From: Hydrogenobacter sp.
GTDB taxonomy: Bacteria; Aquificota; Aquificia; Aquificales; Aquificaceae
DNA: 44,740 nt
Assembly: GCA_028276405.1 (NCBI GenBank)
Contig: JAPYWJ010000008.1
Coordinates: forward strand, 1-44,740
Direction: 5' to 3'
A program made the translations under genes and the position numbers. This document shows positions 2,688-38,001 of this stretch, one piece after another (position 1 is the stretch's first letter; each line of letters starts with the position of its first letter). A model generated the notes under the pieces. It saw nothing but the letters and a program-made list of their open reading frames with translations, did not search any database and was not told the DNA's origin.

Positions 2688-4054
2688 ATGGTTCTGGAAA
2701 ACCTAAGCTCCTTTTTGTTTCTGATGTGCTCGTCAAAGACCATGGCTATGTTTCTTATGAGAAGTCTTCCTTCAGGCTTTATCTGTATCTTCCCATCTTT
2801 TACCTCAAGAAGACCGTCAGATTCCATGGCTTTGAGCTCTTCAAGTTCCTTTCTAAAGTACTCCTCAAAGTTTATACCAAACATGTCTTCTAGCTTCTTG
2901 AAAGAGCACTGAAAGTTGCACATAAGGTCCATGATCACCTCCCTTCTTAGGATGTCTTCATAGGTTAGCAAATATCCTCTCATAATAGGTAGCTTACCTG
3001 CGTCTATAGCCATGTAGTAATCCCTTATAGTTTTGTAATTTTGGAAGTATCCGTCATACAGCATGCCTATGGAAGTAGCACCTATACCTATAAGGTCTAC
3101 TCCCTTTTTGGTAGTGTATCCCTGAAAGTTTCTCCAAAGAGTGCCTTCCCTTTGAGCCATTGCCAGCTCATCAGTAGGCTTGGCAAAGTGATCCATGCCT
3201 ATAAACACATAACCCGCTGACTGAAACATATCTACCGTCATCTCCAGTATGTAGAGCTTATCTTCTGGTGGTGGAAGTGTTGAAGGGTCTATCTTTCTCT
3301 GAAGAGGTTTTATCCAAGGAACATAGGCGAAGTTAAAGACCGCAACGCGATCTGGGTCCAAGGCTATAGTCTTCTCTATGGTGGTCTTAAACTTCTCAGG
3401 CGTCTGGTAGGGAAGTCCGTAAATGAGGTCTATGTTTATACTTTCAAAGCCCAAATCTTTTAGCCTTTTCATCACATCTTTCATAAGACTCTCCGGTTGC
3501 ACTCTGTTTATTGCCTCTTGCACCTGAGGGTCAAGATCCTGAAGCCCCATACTCACCCTGTTGAAGCCTAACTCTCTAAGGGTTTCCAATTGACCCTCTG
3601 AGAGGTATCTTGGGTCTATCTCCACGCTTATCTCCGCAGAAGGGTCTATGTTGAAAGTATCCCGTATTTTACTAAACAGCTCCTTTATCTCTTGATTAGT
3701 CAAAAAGTTAGGTGTTCCACCTCCCCAGTGTAGCTGAACTACTTTCCTAGAAGAGTCCATGTAGGTTTTTAACATGTCCATCTCTCTGTATAGGTAGTCA
3801 AGATACCTCCTGCTCACATCCTTCCTGTGAGATATGATCACATTACAACCACAGAACCAGCAGGCACTTTCACAGAAAGGTATGTGAAAGTATAAAGAAA
3901 GGTCTCTCCCCCTTTCGTTGCTTTCTAAAAGCTTTTTCTTGTATTCCCCTTCCTTTACCCCTTCGTGAAATTCTGTGGCAGGCGGGTAGCTTGTGTATCT
4001 AGGTCCCGGTTTATCGTACTTCCTTATTAAATCCGCAGAGAAAACTGTTCTCAT
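2684..4054 (-). CDS. hemN: Oxygen-independent coproporphyrinogen III oxidase
   Basis: Radical-SAM enzyme that decarboxylates coproporphyrinogen III to protoporphyrinogen IX without oxygen, in heme biosynthesis in the cytoplasm. The 456-residue length fits true HemN. The N-terminus has [13 protein letters not shown]; the cluster motif is C61-x3-C65-x2-C68 followed by C70, as in the CxxxCxFCxC motif of characterised Hem[11 protein letters not shown] and EIDPRYL are further family blocks. This makes it HemN rather than the HemW-like paralog. It is the first gene of a minus-strand unit with the ABC ATPase, the CNNM protein and rpoN. No Shine-Dalgarno precedes the ATG; a TATATT at 4065-4070 (minus) sits 10 bases away, suggesting a very short leader. 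Confidence 0.95.
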
Positions 4055-4064
4055 GATAGATTTA

Positions 4065-4074
4065 AATATATATT
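4065..4074. promoter_or_regulatory. Palindromic -10 region shared by hemN (-) and grpE (+)
   Basis: The 10-base palindrome AATATATATT contains a TATATT on each strand (4065-4070 minus, 4069-4074 plus). The 42-base gap between the divergent starts leaves little room for separate promoters. A start about 7 bases past each hexamer would give a leader of about 4 bases for hemN and about 16 bases, with a Shine-Dalgarno, for grpE. No good -35 was identified, so this is an inference from position and match. Confidence 0.5.
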
Positions 4075-4096
4075 AAAACCTTCCAGGAGGTAAAAA

Positions 4097-4651
4097 ATGC
4101 AGGAAAGGGAAAACCAAGAACCATTAATGCACCAAGTTGAAGAAGTTAAAGAAGGATTGAAGGAAGAAGAGAAAAAGATCAAAGAGCTTGAGGAGAAGGT
4201 TTCTAAACTGGAGCAGATCGCTAAGGTGGCAAACCAAAGGTATGTGGAACTTCAAAGGGAGTTAGAGCTTTTCAAAGAGAGATATCGCAGGGATCTTGAA
4301 GAGCAAAGAAAATACGGATACGAAAAGTTTGCCCTTGAGATATTGGAAGTTGTTGATAACTTTGAAAGAGCTTTTTCCAGCTTTTCTGAGTCTCATACAC
4401 CTCTGCTACAAGGCTTTCAGCTTATATACAAGGAGTTAAAGAGGATACTGGAAAAGTACGGCATAAGGGAAATACAGATAGAAGGCAAAGAGTTTGACCC
4501 ATACCTTGCAGAAGCTGTGGAAAAAGAGTATAACCCTGATACCCCACCTAACACAGTTATCAAGGTAGTAAGAAAGGGCTACACAATTCATGAACGCGTG
4601 CTAAGACCCGCAAAGGTGGTGGTTTCTGTCCAAGAAGAGGAGATTACCTAA
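4097..4651 (+). CDS. grpE: Nucleotide exchange factor GrpE
   Basis: 184-residue co-chaperone that releases ADP from DnaK and acts as a thermosensor. Residues about 10-75 are a charged heptad-patterned helix (coiled-coil dimer stalk), followed by a four-helix bundle (LEILEVVDNFERAF) and the C-terminal beta domain that inserts into DnaK (PPNTVIKVVRKGYTIHERVL, then RPAKVVVS). A strong AGGAGGT precedes the ATG by 6 bases. It is first in a plus-strand unit with the NYN gene (7-base gap), panE and the HAD gene. dnaK is not in the window. Confidence 0.95.
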   Translation: MQERENQEPLMHQVEEVKEGLKEEEKKIKELEEKVSKLEQIAKVANQRYVELQRELELFKERYRRDLEEQRKYGYEKFALEILEVVDNFERAFSSFSESHTPLLQGFQLIYKELKRILEKYGIREIQIEGKEFDPYLAEAVEKEYNPDTPPNTVIKVVRKGYTIHERVLRPAKVVVSVQEEEIT

Positions 4652-9786: not shown

Positions 9787-10559
9787 TCCCTAAAAACCTC
9801 CTGTCTTTTTTCCTTTAAAAGTCTTTCTCTTACCAAGGGCTTTGCAGATTCAAGTGGCATGATGCCACCTCCTCTTTTGTCTACTATCTTAAGTACAAGA
9901 TATCCGCTACCAGTATCTATGGGTTTTGAAACTTTGCCTACTTCGTAAGGGTATAACTGCTCCTTTACTATCTCGGGTAAGGTTTGTATGGAGTACCACA
10001 TGGGCTCTCCTTCTTTGACGGACTTTGAGTTTTCCACACTTTTCCCTACTGATAGGCGATAGTAAAGCTCATTGGCTGTGTCTAGATCATCTGCCAAAAA
10101 TCTTTTTACTAAAACCTGAGCGGGTAGTTTGAAGTCTCTCAGGTTCAGATAGTAATAGGCTGTTACTTCCTTGTCATTCACTTCTATGTCTTTGGCTATC
10201 ATGTCTATGATCTTGTTGGTAATTAGTTCCGTTTTTACTAATTCTTTTACCGCTTCGCTTAGTTTTTCGTTTCCAATGTTCTTCTGTATGTATTCTTTTA
10301 GCTCACTTTCCTTAACACTTATACCCATCCTTTTGGCTTCTTGCTGTATTATCTGACTCCTTACATACTCTATGAGAAACTCCCTCATATCCCTCTTGGT
10401 AGCCTGAGTTATAGGCAGATGTATCATCTCACGCCAGTATGCGTTAAAGGCATCAATGAGCTCTTCTTTAGTTATCACCTTTGAGTTTATTTTGGCAACT
10501 ACACTGCCATAAGAAAGACTAAGCACCACAAGCAGCAAGAAAAGGGCTTTTTGGAACAT
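9729..10559 (-). CDS. SurA/PpiC-like peptidyl-prolyl isomerase family chaperone
   Basis: 276-residue exported protein with a cleavable signal peptide (FQKALFLLLVVLSLSYGSVVA). Residues about 20-130 resemble the SurA/PrsA N-terminal chaperone domain (INSKVITKEELIDAFNAYW). Residues about 140-235 look like a parvulin domain (QTLPEIVKEQLYPYEVGKVS, then SGYLVLKIVDKR), although the catalytic His/Cys set is incomplete. It is the first gene of the envelope unit with the second SurA-like gene, the glycosyltransferase and the deacetylase. A perfect TATAAT on the minus strand (10568-10573) is only 8 bases before the ATG and there is no Shine-Dalgarno, predicting a 2-base leader. Confidence 0.82.
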   Translation of the reverse strand: MFQKALFLLLVVLSLSYGSVVAKINSKVITKEELIDAFNAYWREMIHLPITQATKRDMREFLIEYVRSQIIQQEAKRMGISVKESELKEYIQKNIGNEKLSEAVKELVKTELITNKIIDMIAKDIEVNDKEVTAYYYLNLRDFKLPAQVLVKRFLADDLDTANELYYRLSVGKSVENSKSVKEGEPMWYSIQTLPEIVKEQLYPYEVGKVSKPIDTGSGYLVLKIVDKRGGGIMPLESAKPLVRERLLKEKRQEVFREWFQKVSKNYRVEFFFWQL

Positions 10560-10567
10560 GATATGAA

Positions 10568-10573
10568 ATTATA
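10568..10573 (-). promoter_or_regulatory. -10 element of the SurA-like gene pair
   Basis: Perfect TATAAT on the minus strand, 8 bases upstream of the ATG at 10559. The intervening bases hold no Shine-Dalgarno. If transcription starts 7 bases past the hexamer, the leader is 2 bases. Confidence 0.6.
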
Positions 10574-10591
10574 GAGGAATGTTTTACATCA

Positions 10592-13312: not shown

Positions 13313-13682
13313 GAAGCGTTCTAGCTCGCTCTTTTGCTCTTTCCCACTCCTGAATCTCCTCTAAGGTTTGTGCGGTTGCTAATTTCTTTATGGCTTGATC
13401 GAAAAGCTCTTTCTCCTTACCTGCGTCTATCTGTCCTACAGTGTAAGCTTCTTCCGCTAAAATGATCACCCTTTGTGGTGTTATATCAACAAAACCGTAA
13501 GTGACAGCTATACCGTCCCTTGGGTTGCCGTCAAAATAAACAAGACCCGGTTTTAAAAGAGTCATGAGGTACATGTGTTTTTCTAAAACGCCTATCTCTC
13601 CTTCTTGGGTGGGGATGTTTACGGAGTTTACCTGTCTTGAAAAGGCTATACCCTGAGGTGTGACTATCTCAACGCTGATCAT
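13284..13682 (-). CDS. atpC: F1Fo ATP synthase epsilon subunit
   Basis: 132-residue epsilon subunit of F1, part of the rotor stalk and an inhibitor of ATP hydrolysis. The N-terminal beta-sandwich (SVEIVTPQGIAFSRQVNSVN, TQEGEIGVLEKHMYLMTLLK) is typical and the C-terminal helical hairpin (about 88-130) is present. It stands alone, away from the other atp genes, as is common in Aquificales where the operon is broken up. A perfect extended -10 (TGTTATAAT) lies 7 bases before the ATG with no Shine-Dalgarno. Confidence 0.92.
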   Translation of the reverse strand: MISVEIVTPQGIAFSRQVNSVNIPTQEGEIGVLEKHMYLMTLLKPGLVYFDGNPRDGIAVTYGFVDITPQRVIILAEEAYTVGQIDAGKEKELFDQAIKKLATAQTLEEIQEWERAKERARTLLEILERFGS

Positions 13683-13689
13683 AAAGTTT

Positions 13690-13698
13690 ATTATAACA
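13690..13698 (-). promoter_or_regulatory. Extended -10 element of atpC
   Basis: TGTTATAAT on the minus strand (TG-N-TATAAT). Seven bases (AAACTTT) separate it from the ATG at 13682, so the predicted leader is about one base. Confidence 0.65.
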
Positions 13699-13710
13699 CG
13701 GCTGAAGGTA

Positions 13711-13716
13711 TATATT
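13711..13716 (+). promoter_or_regulatory. -10 element of nadA
   Basis: TATATT, 8 bases before the ATG at 13725. No clear -35. It runs divergently from the atpC promoter in the 42-base gap. Confidence 0.45.
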
Positions 13717-13724
13717 TAATTTTC

Positions 13725-14678
13725 ATGTTTACCCTGGAGGTGATGACAGAAAAGGATACAAGGGAACTGCAGGAAGAAATAAGGAACCTTGCAAAAGAGA
13801 AAAATGCGGTAATATTAGCTCACTACTACCAAAGACCTGAGGTACAGGATATAGCGGACTTCATAGGCGACTCTTTGGAGCTTTCAAGGAAAGCAAGCCA
13901 AACGGATGCGGACATAATAGTTTTCTGCGGTGTGCGTTTTATGTGCGAGACTGCAAAGATTGTAAATCCTAATAAAAAGGTGCTACATCCCAACCCTGAA
14001 TCTGGCTGTCCCATGGCGGACATGATAACAGCAAAGGATGTGCTAAAACTCAAAGAACAGCATCCCGACGGTGAGGTGGTGGCTTATGTGAATACAAGCG
14101 CAGATGTCAAAGCGGTTTCTGATGTGTGCGTAACCTCTGCCAATGCGGTAAAAGTAGTTCAGAAGCTTCAAAGCAATAAGATCATCTTTATACCAGACCA
14201 AGCTCTTGGAAACTGGGTAAAAAGACATGTACCGGAGAAGGAGTTTGTAATATGGCAGGGTTTTTGCCCGCCACACTTTGAGTTTACAGCAAGAGAAGTG
14301 CAAAAGCTAAAGGACATGTATCCAGATGCAAAGGTTGCGGTTCATCCTGAATGCCATCCAAAGGTGATACAGATAGCAGATTTTGTAGGCTCCACTTCTC
14401 AAATAATTAACTACGCTACTACTTGCGATGCTAAAAGGGTCATAGTAATAACAGAGGTGGGTTTAAAGTACACTCTTATGAAAAGAAATCCCCACAAAGA
14501 ATACATATTTCCAGAATCCATGAACTACTGCGGTAGTGTTTACTGTTGTACTATGAAAGCTATAACCTTACCTAAGGTTTATGAAACACTAAAAAACGAG
14601 CTTAACGAGGTGGTTTTGCCAGAAGATATAATAGAAAGAGCCAAAAGACCCCTTCTGAGGATGTTGGAGCTGTCATGA
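13725..14678 (+). CDS. nadA: Quinolinate synthase A
   Basis: 317-residue iron-sulfur enzyme that condenses iminoaspartate with dihydroxyacetone phosphate to quinolinate in NAD synthesis. Three pseudo-repeats are visible, with cluster cysteines in CGVRFMCETA, WQGFCPPHFEF and MNYCGSVYCC; AHYYQRPEVQDIADF, NPESGCPMADM and HPECHP are further family blocks. Start uncertain: ATG 13725 sits 8 bases after a TATATT (leaderless reading), whereas ATG 13743 has GGAGGTG only 2 bases away, too close to work well. It overlaps ispG by ATGA. Confidence 0.95.
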   Translation: MFTLEVMTEKDTRELQEEIRNLAKEKNAVILAHYYQRPEVQDIADFIGDSLELSRKASQTDADIIVFCGVRFMCETAKIVNPNKKVLHPNPESGCPMADMITAKDVLKLKEQHPDGEVVAYVNTSADVKAVSDVCVTSANAVKVVQKLQSNKIIFIPDQALGNWVKRHVPEKEFVIWQGFCPPHFEFTAREVQKLKDMYPDAKVAVHPECHPKVIQIADFVGSTSQIINYATTCDAKRVIVITEVGLKYTLMKRNPHKEYIFPESMNYCGSVYCCTMKAITLPKVYETLKNELNEVVLPEDIIERAKRPLLRMLELS

Positions 14679-32882: not shown

Positions 32883-35423
32883 TTACCTCACCTCACACTT
32901 AGGTAATTCCTTTCTGAGAGAGTTTATCACACTTAGTTCTTCTTGTGAAGCGGTCTGAAGGTTAGCCTTATCAAGGAGACAAGAAGCATCACGCTTGGCA
33001 TTAAGGTCTATCAGTAGCTTAACAGCTTCTATAAGTGCCTTATTATAGAGGGGAGAATCTTTATGATTTACAGTTATGTCTACTAAGTCCTCTAAAGCCT
33101 TCCTTTTTTCGTTTTCTTTCAGGTAATCAAGTGCTGATAAGTAAAGAGCCTGAGGTCTTACTTGTGGGTCCTTACTGAGCTTGAGATAATCTAGATAGCT
33201 TCTGTCTTTGGATGCCTTGTAAAGCTCTAAAAGATAGGTTTCAAATTCCTGAGTTCTGTATCCCTTTTCCATAAGAGCTTTTGCTAACTTTTGTGCATCT
33301 TGGTCATCTCCTAAGGACATGTATATACCTATTGCTTTGACTTTATCCTCATCTTCACCTTCTGCAAGAAGGTCCGCGATGCTCTTTTTGTCTCCTACTT
33401 GCGTGTAAAACTCTATAAGCTCATCGCGAGCTTGTTTTCTTTCTTGGGTGTTACCTTCCTTATAAACTTTGAAGAGAAGCACTGCCTTCTTTCCGGGGTC
33501 TTTTTCTAAATGTGCTAACTCAAGTATGGCTTTGTATTTGAGTGGACTGTCCATAAGCTCAATAAGTATAGGCTTTGCCTTTTCTTCCTGACCGTTCTTT
33601 ATGTATGTCTTGGCAAGTTGGTATTTGAGCTCATCGGACATGGGAGAGTTAGGATAATTCTTTAGGTAGTTTTCTAGCAGTGTTTCCATCTGTTTGTCCC
33701 CTATCTCCTTACCACCCATACCTATAAGAGAGAGTGTCGCGTACTTAGCATACTCGGAATTGGGGTAATTGCTGAGAACTTGGTAGTAATACTCTTTTGC
33801 AAGTTCAACCTTTCCTTCGTTGTAGAGAGCATCTCCTAATTTTAAAAGAGCCTTAGGTTTTAGCGGGCTATTCTGCGATATGGATTTAAAGTAGTGGGAG
33901 GACTCTGCGTACTTGCCTTCCAAGAAGTAAGACAGTCCTATAAGATACAGTTCCTCGTCTGTATCTTCAGTTAAAAAGCTTCTTGCTAACTTGGTGTCTC
34001 CCAGAAAGAGCGCAGCTTTGGCTTTGAGGAGCCTTTCTTTTAGAGAATTCCTCTTTTGGAGCACTTGTATCACTCGATCGTAATCTTTCATATTAAAGTA
34101 AGCCAAGGCTTTATAGTAGGGGTCATCAAGGTACATTACCGCCTTAGCCCAGTCACCTCTTTTGAAGTAAAACCAGCCTGTGTACTCTCTATAAAGGTCT
34201 GGATATCTTTCCCTTATCTCATCTAAAATGGGTTCTAAACCTTTGTCAGACCAATACGCACTTTCCAAATACCACTGATACTCCTCTCTGTTTTTTCTAG
34301 TTTTTTGCTTTAAAAGCTCGTAAGCTTTTGTGTATTCTCCTAGCTTTATGTAGGAGTACACCGCGTAAAGCACATTTCCCGATTCCAAGAAGTTATAAAG
34401 AGCAAGTCTGTAATCTCCCGAGTTATACGCTATAATGCCTGCCCGATCAAGAAAGCGCTTATCACCTGTGATGGAATAAGTCAATCTGGAGAGTAGCACA
34501 TTCCTTGAGGATATGATGCTGTAAAGATTTTCTGAAAGGGATGAGTTCATAGTTTCCAGTATGCTTGCATAAGATAAAGCGCTCTTGTTGTCTCCCCTTT
34601 CTGTGGAAATAACCCCAAGGTAGTAAAGAGCTATGTCTCTATAAGGTTTTGTAGGGGCTGAGTATTCTTTGAATATTTCTTCTGCTTGCAAGACTTTACC
34701 CATCTTATAGAGTACTATAGCTTTTCTTAGCTTTAGGCTGTTTGTGTATTTGTTTCCTTCTTTGCCTTGGTAAAACTCAAGCACATACTGGCAGTATTCT
34801 TGGAAAACTGCGTTTGCGCAGTAAGGCTTTGACATATTGCCAGACTTAATGTTAGCTACAGCTTCCCACATGGGGTCTGTGTTCTGAGGAACTTTGCCAG
34901 TGAGTTTAAAGCTAAGAGCATAGTAGGACTCACAGCTTGCCTTTTGGTATATATGCGAGTACCTACAGGAATCATTAAAAAGTTCTAAGGCTTTTTCCTC
35001 TTTTCCTTCTCTAGCGTAAATAACACCAAGAACATACTCAGCCATAGGTTTAAAGGGTGATGGCATAAGGACAACCTTAGAAAGCTCTTCTTCAGCAGGT
35101 CCGTATTTGCCCTCAAGGTAATAGTCCACGCCTAATCTGTAAGATATACGGTCTTTTGGCTCTCCACAGCTTATGCCACTTTCTTCTTTTAGCGGTTTTA
35201 TCTGAGTCTGTTCCAGCTTATCTGGAGGTTCTAAAAGCCTATAGCTCAGGTCCATAGGTTTATCTTCTTGAACTTGTAAAGTTTCCGGAGGTAGGAGTTT
35301 GGGTTTTTCTTCTGTAGACTTGCCTATTAACTGAACGCTCACATCAAACTCTTTCTTTATGTCTGCCGACACAAGGAAAAGTCCACACAAAAAAAGACTA
35401 AATAGCTTTATGAGCTTCCACAT
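32883..35423 (-). CDS. Large exported TPR-repeat protein
   Basis: 846-residue protein with a signal peptide (KLIKLFSLFLCGLFLVSA). After a 75-residue spacer, nearly the whole protein is helical tandem repeats: several read as tetratricopeptide repeats (for example YRLGVDYYLEGKYGPAEEEL, YYLGVISTERGDNKSALSYA, LLKLGDALYNEGKVELAKEY and YYQVLSNYPNSEYAK). This suggests a periplasmic or outer-membrane scaffold such as those that assist Tol/Pal, pili, or outer-membrane assembly. AGGAGATC precedes the ATG by 5 bases inside pspA. It lies one base before exbB, so a shared machine with the ExbBD motor is likely. I cannot name an ortholog. Confidence 0.85.
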   Translation of the reverse strand: MWKLIKLFSLFLCGLFLVSADIKKEFDVSVQLIGKSTEEKPKLLPPETLQVQEDKPMDLSYRLLEPPDKLEQTQIKPLKEESGISCGEPKDRISYRLGVDYYLEGKYGPAEEELSKVVLMPSPFKPMAEYVLGVIYAREGKEEKALELFNDSCRYSHIYQKASCESYYALSFKLTGKVPQNTDPMWEAVANIKSGNMSKPYCANAVFQEYCQYVLEFYQGKEGNKYTNSLKLRKAIVLYKMGKVLQAEEIFKEYSAPTKPYRDIALYYLGVISTERGDNKSALSYASILETMNSSLSENLYSIISSRNVLLSRLTYSITGDKRFLDRAGIIAYNSGDYRLALYNFLESGNVLYAVYSYIKLGEYTKAYELLKQKTRKNREEYQWYLESAYWSDKGLEPILDEIRERYPDLYREYTGWFYFKRGDWAKAVMYLDDPYYKALAYFNMKDYDRVIQVLQKRNSLKERLLKAKAALFLGDTKLARSFLTEDTDEELYLIGLSYFLEGKYAESSHYFKSISQNSPLKPKALLKLGDALYNEGKVELAKEYYYQVLSNYPNSEYAKYATLSLIGMGGKEIGDKQMETLLENYLKNYPNSPMSDELKYQLAKTYIKNGQEEKAKPILIELMDSPLKYKAILELAHLEKDPGKKAVLLFKVYKEGNTQERKQARDELIEFYTQVGDKKSIADLLAEGEDEDKVKAIGIYMSLGDDQDAQKLAKALMEKGYRTQEFETYLLELYKASKDRSYLDYLKLSKDPQVRPQALYLSALDYLKENEKRKALEDLVDITVNHKDSPLYNKALIEAVKLLIDLNAKRDASCLLDKANLQTASQEELSVINSLRKELPKCEVR

Positions 35424-36033
35424 ACAGATCTCCTAAGTGGCATGTGATGTTAAGCTTTAGTATAACATTCCTGTGCTCTTCCATGTGTACTACTGAATAG
35501 CTTGCGTTATCACAGCCAAAGCTCCAAAACTTAGAAAGGTCCACACCTAAAAGGGCACAGTACATGGCACGCATGGGAACAGTATGAGATACCGCAACCA
35601 CTGTCTGATCTCTGTGCCTTTCTTTTATATCATCAAGGAACTCCCTTACCCTGCTAAAAACAGACCTAAGGCTCTCCCCTTTTGGAAACTCCACCTTATG
35701 AGGCTCTTCAATCCACCTTCTGAAATCTTCTGGGTACTTTTCCATCACCTCTTCCACAAGCATACCAGACCAAATACCGTGATCTATCTCTATTATTCTA
35801 TCCTCTTTTACAACATCAATACCCTTTACCTTAGCTATCTCCAAAGCAGTTGTGTAGGTTCTTTTCAGAGGCGAAGAGTAGATAACATCTATGCGTTCTT
35901 TTGAAAGTTCTTGAGCAAGGAGTTTAGCTTGTTGTTTACCTCTCTCAGATAGATGAGGGTCAAGAAGTCCTTGATACCTTCCTATAGGATTCCACTCACT
36001 TTCTGCGTGGCGCACAAGGATCAACTTTACCAT
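35398..36033 (-). CDS. pspA: Metal-independent phosphoserine phosphatase (histidine phosphatase family)
   Basis: 211-residue enzyme of the phosphoglycerate-mutase-like histidine phosphatase family. The catalytic RHA/G motif is LVRHAESEWN (R8, H9), with the acid/base region IEIDHGIWSG and the second His in VSHTVPMRAM. From memory it is nearly identical to PspA (iPSP1) of Hydrogenobacter thermophilus, which is a phosphoserine phosphatase rather than a mutase; that is the basis of the call. It overlaps the aminotransferase by 7 bases, which fits serine synthesis. It overlaps the TPR gene by 26 bases. Confidence 0.88.
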   Translation of the reverse strand: MVKLILVRHAESEWNPIGRYQGLLDPHLSERGKQQAKLLAQELSKERIDVIYSSPLKRTYTTALEIAKVKGIDVVKEDRIIEIDHGIWSGMLVEEVMEKYPEDFRRWIEEPHKVEFPKGESLRSVFSRVREFLDDIKERHRDQTVVAVSHTVPMRAMYCALLGVDLSKFWSFGCDNASYSVVHMEEHRNVILKLNITCHLGDLYVEAHKAI

Positions 36034-37148
36034 AATCCGGATTCCATCAAAGCCTGCGAGTATTCAGCTACAGCACTACCCAATTGCACACTGTAGCTCA
36101 GTCTTTTAAGCGCTACCTCCAAAATACCTATAAGCATAAGTCCGTCCTTATCGCTCACACCCATGTGAGAGATCCTGAATATCTTTCCTTTAAGATGGTC
36201 TTGTCCACCTGCTACCCTTATACCATGTTTTAAAAGTTCTTTGCGTATCTTTTCCGCATCTTGGCTTTTTACCGCTGTCAGGGATATGGATGGTCTCTCG
36301 GGGAAAATATCCAGACCTAATTTCTTTATGGCTCTTCTTGTACCTTCTGATATAGCCCTGTAGCGCTTCTCCACCTTGTCCATACCTTCTTCCAAAAGTA
36401 TGGAAAGGGATTCCTTTAAGCCTAATATAAGGCTTATGGCTGGTGTCCATGCGGTTTGACCTTCTTTCTGTTTGCTTAGTTCTCTCTTTATGTCAAAATA
36501 AAAGGCTCTATCCCTTAACCTGTCCTGTGCTTTCTGAGAAAACCACAAAAGGGAAAGTCCTGGAGGTAGCATAAAAGCCTTCTGAGAACCACCCACCAGC
36601 ACATCAATACCTATAGAAGGTTTTATGTGATAAACTCCGAGCGCTGTTATAGCGTCGGCAACCAAAAGGGCATCGCTTTCTTTACATACTTGCGCTATTT
36701 CCTCCACAGGATGGTAACTACCCGTAGATGTTTCAGATACCTGAAGCAAAACTCCCATACAGTCGGGATGTTTTTTGAGAAAATCTCTTATTAGTTCAGG
36801 GTCTGCGGACTTTCCCCATTCTATGCTGTACTCTATAACATTTAATTTCCAATGTTTGGCAAGCAAAAGCCACCTTTCACCAAACTTTCCAGCGTTGACT
36901 ACTAAGACCTTTTGTCCCTCTTCAAAGAAGTTCAGAATTGCTGATTCCATAGCACCTGTGCCAGAGGAGGAAAAAAGCACCAAATTGTCAGAAGAGTCCT
37001 CTAAAAGCCTTTTTATCAGCTCTCTTACTTCCAAAAATATCCGCCTGAACTCTTCTGTCCTGTGGTGAATCATCTGCCTACCGAGGACTTCTCTAACCCT
37101 ATCTGGAATTTCAACGGGACCGGGTGTGAAAAGCCTTTCTTGATACAT
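36027..37148 (-). CDS. Class V PLP-dependent aminotransferase (alanine/serine-glyoxylate type)
   Basis: 373-residue fold-type I aminotransferase. PLP lysine K190 in VGGSQKAFMLPPG, the pyridine-binding D165 in LLVADAITALG, and the N-terminal LFTPGPVEIPDRV with MIHHRTEEF are typical of the serine-glyoxylate/alanine-glyoxylate group, often misnamed soluble hydrogenase subunit. Because the next gene is a phosphoserine phosphatase, a role as phosphoserine or serine-linked aminotransferase is a good inference but unproven. A TAAAAT on the minus strand lies 8 bases before the ATG and no Shine-Dalgarno is present. Confidence 0.88.
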   Translation of the reverse strand: MYQERLFTPGPVEIPDRVREVLGRQMIHHRTEEFRRIFLEVRELIKRLLEDSSDNLVLFSSSGTGAMESAILNFFEEGQKVLVVNAGKFGERWLLLAKHWKLNVIEYSIEWGKSADPELIRDFLKKHPDCMGVLLQVSETSTGSYHPVEEIAQVCKESDALLVADAITALGVYHIKPSIGIDVLVGGSQKAFMLPPGLSLLWFSQKAQDRLRDRAFYFDIKRELSKQKEGQTAWTPAISLILGLKESLSILLEEGMDKVEKRYRAISEGTRRAIKKLGLDIFPERPSISLTAVKSQDAEKIRKELLKHGIRVAGGQDHLKGKIFRISHMGVSDKDGLMLIGILEVALKRLSYSVQLGSAVAEYSQALMESGLW

Positions 37149-37155
37149 GTTAAAC

Positions 37156-37162
37156 TATTTTA
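37156..37162. promoter_or_regulatory. Shared symmetric -10 element between aminotransferase and EamA genes
   Basis: TATTTTA reads TATTTT on the plus strand (37156-37161) and TAAAAT on the minus strand (37157-37162). Predicted start points 7 bases past each hexamer are 37168 (plus) and 37150 (minus), 18 bases apart, giving leaders of 0 and 2 bases. No strong -35 is visible. Confidence 0.5.
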
Positions 37163-37167
37163 TCTCA

Positions 37168-38001
37168 ATGTTAGGTCTTTTGCTTGCTTTCTTATCTTCT
37201 TTCTTTTGGGCTACTAATGACCTTATTACTAAAAAGCTCATACATAGGGGTTTTGACGAATATCTACTGCTATGGATAAGATTTCCCGTGTCTTCTTTGC
37301 TTTTACTACCCTTTGGTCTGCTTTTTTGGGATTTAGATGCCTTTGTCTTACTCAGCACTTTTCTTTGGCTTCCTGTGGAGGTCATGGCTGGTGTGTTTTT
37401 TGTAAAAGCACTAAAGTACGCTCCTCTTTCTGTAGCCATGTCTTTTTATTCTTTTATGCCCTTCTTTTCTGCCCTCTTTGGCTTCTTACTCTTGAAAGAG
37501 ACACCCAGCTTTTTAGGATTTCTTGGTATGTTTCTTATGGCAATAGGAGCTTTGCTCTTGACTGGCTTTTCTCCTGCAGAGTTTTTTAGGAAAAATGTAG
37601 GCAGTCTTTACATGATCATTTCCACATCGCTTTTTGGTTTTAACACGGTTCTTGGTAAGTTAGTGGTTATAAACAGCAACCCCTTCTTTTTCAGCTGGTA
37701 CTACACCTTTTGTATGTCTTTTGGTACTCTACTTTTGGTAGATAGGCACCATATAATCAGAGGAGAGAGTTACAAGGACAAAAGATTTGTTGTCTTAGGC
37801 GTATTTTTTGCTTTGGGGACCTTACTTTATAACTCAGCCCTTCTTTACGCTCCTGTATCTTATGTAGCAGCCATAGAGAGGGTTTCTCTACTTCTTAGTA
37901 TGGTTTATTCCAGGATCTTTCTGGGGGAAACTGTCAGTCATCTGCTTCCGGGTGCTTCCTTTATGCTTATAGGTTCATTGCTTCTGAGTATGAGTCTCTA
38001 A
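37168..38001 (+). CDS. EamA/DMT-superfamily transporter
   Basis: 277-residue inner-membrane protein with about ten transmembrane helices in two EamA halves (start MLGLLLAFLSSFFWATNDLI, second half from LYMIISTSLFGFNTVLGKL). The family includes exporters of amino acids and metabolites; substrate unknown. I chose ATG 37168 over 37147 because the latter overlaps the divergent start codon and the added seven residues are outside the family-like first helix. The 3' end overlaps the convergent gamma carbonic anhydrase gene by 27 bases. Confidence 0.85.
   Translation: MLGLLLAFLSSFFWATNDLITKKLIHRGFDEYLLLWIRFPVSSLLLLPFGLLFWDLDAFVLLSTFLWLPVEVMAGVFFVKALKYAPLSVAMSFYSFMPFFSALFGFLLLKETPSFLGFLGMFLMAIGALLLTGFSPAEFFRKNVGSLYMIISTSLFGFNTVLGKLVVINSNPFFFSWYYTFCMSFGTLLLVDRHHIIRGESYKDKRFVVLGVFFALGTLLYNSALLYAPVSYVAAIERVSLLLSMVYSRIFLGETVSHLLPGASFMLIGSLLLSMSL

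Follow-up and report, generated by a model that had tools for sequence, protein, structure and literature searches.

A compact divergent promoter predicted between near-leaderless aminotransferase and EamA-type transporter genes in Aquificaceae

The 19 bases that separate the start codons of a class-V aminotransferase gene (AT) and an EamA-family transporter gene in the heat-loving Hydrogenobacter sp. probably form a compact divergent promoter (we put the probability at roughly 0.75), at which a sigma-70-type RNA polymerase would start in either direction, so that the leaders of the two mRNAs would be no longer than a few bases. The window, that is, the whole stretch of DNA analyzed, covers 44,740 nucleotides of contig JAPYWJ010000008.1 (GCA_028276405.1, an assembly of 1.36 Mb). 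Its AT and EamA locus is laid out as CAT GTTAAACTATTTTATCTCA ATG, just as the original prediction had described it: the two start codons, the 19-base gap and the symmetric word TATTTTA between them were all found in place (Table 1). Sequence, conservation, spacing, the assignment of start codons and class-wide enrichment were computed.

Table 1. Features of the AT/EamA locus, in positions of the window; d is the distance in bases from the first T of a -10 hexamer to the ATG.
Feature	Position	Strand	Details
Class-V aminotransferase gene (AT)	36027..37148	minus	Aminotran_5 1.3e-29; ATG 37148-37146; first gene of the presumed unit with pspA
pspA, PspA-type phosphoserine phosphatase (histidine phosphatase)	35398..36033	minus	NF045917 402.5 bits (cut-off 350)
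EamA-family transporter gene	37168..38001	plus	PF00892 7e-26; ATG 37168-37170
Intergenic region	37149..37167		19 bases; holds the entire predicted promoter core of both genes; aligned in 14 EamA-bearing genomes
Symmetric 7-mer TATTTTA (TANNNTA)	37156..37162	both	Invariant in 19 genomes with the AT promoter
AT -10, TAAAAT	37157..37162	minus	9.9 bits; d 14; 8 bases between hexamer and ATG
Candidate EamA -10, TATTTT (shared symmetric reading)	37156..37161	plus	d 12; 4.1 bits; predicted start 37168 (leaderless)
Alternative EamA -10, TAAACT (TAGAAT in g11)	37151..37156	plus	d 17; 6.2 bits; predicted start 37162-37163

The AT product reached none of the NCBIfam equivalog cut-offs, its top match being AspGlyoxATaseBhcA with 231.7 of 650 bits. 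For the pspA product, PDB entries 4ij5 and 4ij6 were close matches (E about 1e-122). Since pspA overlaps the 3′ end of AT by 7 bases, the two genes presumably form one transcription unit. AT may have a role in the serine pathway. This pathway context may lie behind the linkage with an EamA-type transporter.

Neither start codon is preceded at a usable distance by a Shine-Dalgarno sequence (GGAG, GAGG or AGGA), and no -35 element (TTGACA-like, 16-18 bases upstream of the -10) was present on either strand of the locus; in the near-leaderless starts of the family, a -35 is weakly enriched at a spacer of 17 (11% vs. about 5%). A generic promoter scan gave no match in the intergenic region. We scored the region with a local model of the -10 and its spacing, obtained by an EM fit to 1347 starts drawn from the sampled sequence of G004, G005, G012 and G014, with the window added to the first of these and with divergent pairs under 60 bases omitted from training. 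The fit returned TATAAT with d sharply at 12-15 bases, which is the typical start signal of these genera. The score of AT in this TATAAT model and the lack of a Shine-Dalgarno sequence at both starts support the divergent promoter, and the weakness of the EamA -10, on either of the two readings given below, is counted against it.

The divergent AT/EamA pair is found in 14 genomes of four genera, namely five of g1 (the genus group of the window), seven of g11, G005 (g2) and G012 (g9), and the addition of five EamA-less g11 genomes brings those with the AT promoter to 19. In the g1 genome G004, a single contig of 1.743 Mb, the key promoter bases match those of the window exactly. The AT side of the promoter is a firm prediction. 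Because TAAAAT stands so close to the ATG and is nearly identical in these 19 genomes, AT is predicted to be near-leaderless, with its 5′ end at 37150 or 37148. Several AT orthologues that have no divergent EamA (L023-L031, in g6, g8 and g4) carry TATAAT or TAAAAT about 7-9 bases before the ATG, and thus near-leaderless initiation of AT probably predates the EamA pair. In g9 genomes without EamA (L013, L017-L021), a Shine-Dalgarno-like site of the AGGAGA/AGGTGA type before AT replaces the near-leaderless -10; therefore, the initiation mode of one gene has switched within the family. G012 alone among g9 carries the EamA pair, and its AT (L016) groups with Hydrogenobacter (97/89 support), not with its own genus, which could reflect horizontal transfer or differential loss.

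Alignment of the relatives bore out the word that the original prediction had singled out, as 7/7 bases of TATTTTA are identical in 14/14 EamA-bearing Aquificaceae genomes. By comparison, AT itself has 15 invariant third codon positions among 368 (about 4%) across these genomes and no invariant base among 72 fourfold sites, and the probability of seven invariant bases by drift is near 2e-10. A lone TANNNTA within 19 AT-rich bases is unremarkable by chance; it is the invariance of all seven bases, set against nearly saturated third positions, that makes TATTTTA more than a chance occurrence, and chance was rejected on this ground. Coding constraint was rejected as well, since the bases lie in differing EamA frames between genera and upstream of AT. 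The distances to the start codons are kept closely, though not to the base: d for AT is 14 in all but two of the 19 genomes (15 in G012 and 13 in G095), and d for TATTTT before EamA is 11-13 in the 14. The five g11 genomes with AT and no EamA at the locus retain TATTTTA in 5/5 cases, so its conservation is explained by AT alone, and we rejected it as proof of two-way use. In G046 (L011) and G095 (L063), EamA has been lost and a leftover ATGCTCGG start stands beside the intact AT promoter, which suggests recent gene decay.

There are two candidates for the -10 that would serve EamA. The original prediction took TATTTTA for the only promoter-like word in the gap and for a -10 on both strands. 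The minus-strand half of this stood, with TAAAAT as the -10 of AT, whereas the plus-strand half is rivalled by TAAACT, which is also a TANNNT word and has the higher score in the window, so TATTTTA is not the sole such word. By an E. coli-type matrix, TATTTT and TAAACT are equal in the window.

According to the stricter version, the symmetric TATTTTA would serve both strands, with starts at 37150 and 37168 and an exactly leaderless EamA mRNA; we regard this as quite possible, if short of an even chance. The two predicted start points, 18 bases apart, were reproduced from the geometry of the sequence, taking +1 as 7 bases beyond -7. Bidirectional promoters with a symmetric -10 were described by Warman, Grainger and colleagues, with opposite-strand starts most often 18 bases apart and separations of 10 and 23 also common (PMC12825309, PMC10268837). 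The AT/EamA region resembles them in its TANNNTA core, in the reciprocal -7T/-11A (A at -11 and T at -7 in plus-strand TATTTT as well as in minus-strand TAAAAT), in the T at -18 on both strands and, if TATTTT is used, in the exact 18-base separation. An A also occupies the predicted start point on both strands, and TATTTT, at d = 12-13, falls inside the preferred window and is the top-scoring word in most g11 genomes (5.3 bits). However, TATTTT makes a poor -10 by the local model, with 3.2 bits when spacing is left out of the score, is mis-spaced in G005 and G012 (d = 11, -0.7 bits) and is outscored by the overlapping TAAACT in g1, g2 and G012, and TATTTTA is conserved also where EamA is missing.

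Alternatively, and this we rank second and hold as a possibility, the two genes would use offset -10s: TAAAAT for AT, and for EamA the overlapping plus-strand word 5 bases upstream of TATTTT, TAAACT in g1, g2 and G012 and TAGAAT in g11, which shares one base with TATTTTA. The start points would then be about 12-13 bases apart (vs. 18 for TATTTT) and EamA would have a leader of 5-6 bases. The d of 16-18 lies outside the preferred 12-15, the scores in g11 (2.9-3.4 bits) are below those of TATTTT, and the same bases double as discriminator and start of AT; against these points, the local score is higher for this word both in the window and in G005 and G012 (7.0 bits vs. -0.7). Among genomes with EamA the word is as well conserved as TATTTT, its TA being present in 14/14 of them, whereas 3/5 of those without EamA have lost this TA (Fisher p = 0.010, relatedness uncorrected). 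We take this co-loss as suggestive, since the pattern requires only two changes on the AT tree and the independent-pairs test was without power, there being too few independent losses. The compact, divergent and near-leaderless promoter of the original prediction was supported, and the idea that one hexamer sets both starts is plausible as one of two live versions.

It is improbable that the AT promoter alone is real, with EamA barely transcribed or else transcribed from a promoter within AT. Although TAAAAT is strong for AT and TATTTTA is retained without EamA, no plus-strand sigma-70 match was found within 36900-37167, the EamA start keeps its distance from TATTTT in all 14 genomes, distant EamA homologues away from AT (L045, L049) show TATACT 6 bases before the ATG, and two-sided pairs are enriched class-wide, as described below. 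That EamA begins at 37147, with an ATG that shares bases with the AT start codon (CATG), and is transcribed from further upstream is very unlikely, and this reading was rejected. Five g1 genomes and G042 do have this ATG in an open frame with EamA, but in most g11 genomes its equivalent is out of frame, and in G005 and G012 it leads into a stop within a few codons. Neither a Shine-Dalgarno sequence nor a -10 exceeding -5 bits precedes ATG 37147, and the ATG equivalent to 37168, with its MLG/MIG N-terminus (Leu-Gly or Ile-Gly after the start), is kept in g11, G005 and G012. EamA therefore starts at 37168, and the upstream start that the original prediction had named as fatal to its proposal is ruled out by frame and stops in relatives. 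Several distant EamA genes away from AT begin with ATG-Leu-Gly or ATG-Phe-Gly.

At the compact divergent promoter, RNA polymerase would most likely open the 12-base TARAMTATTTTA core in either orientation. With TAAAAT (37162-37157) as -10, minus-strand transcription would start at 37150-37148 and give a near-leaderless AT-pspA mRNA. In the other orientation, a plus-strand -10 overlapping the same bases, TATTTT (start at 37168) and/or TAAACT (start at about 37162-37163), would give a near-leaderless EamA mRNA. No -35 accompanies either -10, and the gap is too short to hold a leader or operator, which points to one polymerase at a time, so that transcription in one direction is expected to exclude transcription in the other. 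We infer initiation on each strand, the leader lengths and this exclusion or competition from the sequence.

Short gaps between divergent genes were surveyed in samples of 400 kb per genome from four Aquificaceae genomes (1.64 Mb, 194 divergent pairs), with starts set at the leftmost ATG by a simple ORF caller. Leftmost-ATG calling put the AT/EamA pair of the window at -2, outside the counted class, while its G012 copy was counted. Start codons lay 10-30 bases apart in 34 of the 194 pairs (18%; further pairs may be orthologous across the four genomes), compared to 0 of 39 in the sister family (p = 0.002), for which the sample was 400 kb of more AT-rich, Shine-Dalgarno-using sequence. At gaps of 10-24 bases, strong -10s were present on both strands in 15 of 24 pairs (shuffle mean 1.2, max 5), and they overlapped in 14 of these 15 (shuffle mean 0.84, max 3). 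The two-sided effect vanished at gaps of 61-200 bases. Predicted start-point separations within the class were mainly 16 and 15, followed by 18 and 23. The genomes are of a leaderless-rich type, with TANNNT most frequent 12-15 bases ahead of divergent starts. The pattern CAT N5-9 TANNNTA N3-7 ATG exceeded its reversed control in g1 (581 vs. 307, five genomes summed; not in G003), and in nine sister-family genomes it was below control (860 vs. 1157).

The window holds further divergent pairs with short gaps. One, at 10559-10579, has a 19-base gap (GATATGAAATTATAGAGGA) with a strong minus-strand -10 (TATAAT, d 14) and a weak plus-strand -10; another, at 13682-13725, has two separate strong -10s, and a third is located at 4054-4097. 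Tentatively, and at less than even odds, we propose that minimal divergent promoters make up a large class in Aquificaceae, that their overlapping -10s would fix the transcription and translation starts of two genes, and that the spacing of start codons would record the geometry of the bidirectional polymerase, with a preferred predicted separation of 15-16 vs. the 18 reported elsewhere.

In E. coli, initiation at bidirectional promoters is mutually exclusive when activity is high (PMC12825309), and mutually exclusive binding of polymerase is likewise expected at AT/EamA. Unlike those promoters, which were defined by 5′-end mapping, the AT/EamA start points are predicted from sequence; both mRNAs would moreover be near-leaderless, and the separation given by the alternative overlapping -10 differs from theirs. 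With both mRNAs near-leaderless, the separation of start points fixes that of the start codons. For Aquificae, 21-32% of genes were predicted to be leaderless, their signal being TA-like and placed about 10 bases ahead of the ATG (Zheng et al., PMC3160421). AT and EamA resemble such genes, having TANNNT 10-15 bases before the ATG (d = 14 for AT, and 12 or 17 for EamA) and no Shine-Dalgarno sequence; that study covers single genes, and its text, as searched, makes no mention of divergent pairs whose signals are shared or overlap. The switch of plasmid pLS20 (PMC4207663) also has overlapping divergent promoters, which like the two at AT/EamA are expected to occlude each other, but it involves a regulator and DNA looping, whereas the AT/EamA intergenic region totals 19 bases. 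Our literature search, which was incomplete, returned no published 5′-end map for Hydrogenobacter and no description of bidirectional promoters of leaderless genes; the AT/EamA region would work both as a bidirectional promoter and as a leaderless gene pair, and the papers searched yielded no account of this combination, with the geometry written into the start-codon spacing.

In the pair described here, a serine-pathway-like unit made up of AT and the PspA-type phosphatase is linked to an EamA-type transporter, and the arrangement implies obligate competition between two genes that have no space for a leader or operators between them. Bidirectional promoters have so far been defined by 5′-end mapping, and motif surveys have served to define leaderless genes. 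Where both coincide, the spacing of start codons alone would report promoter geometry, and bidirectional transcription would therefore be readable from the genomes of unculturable leaderless lineages, and testable by comparison.
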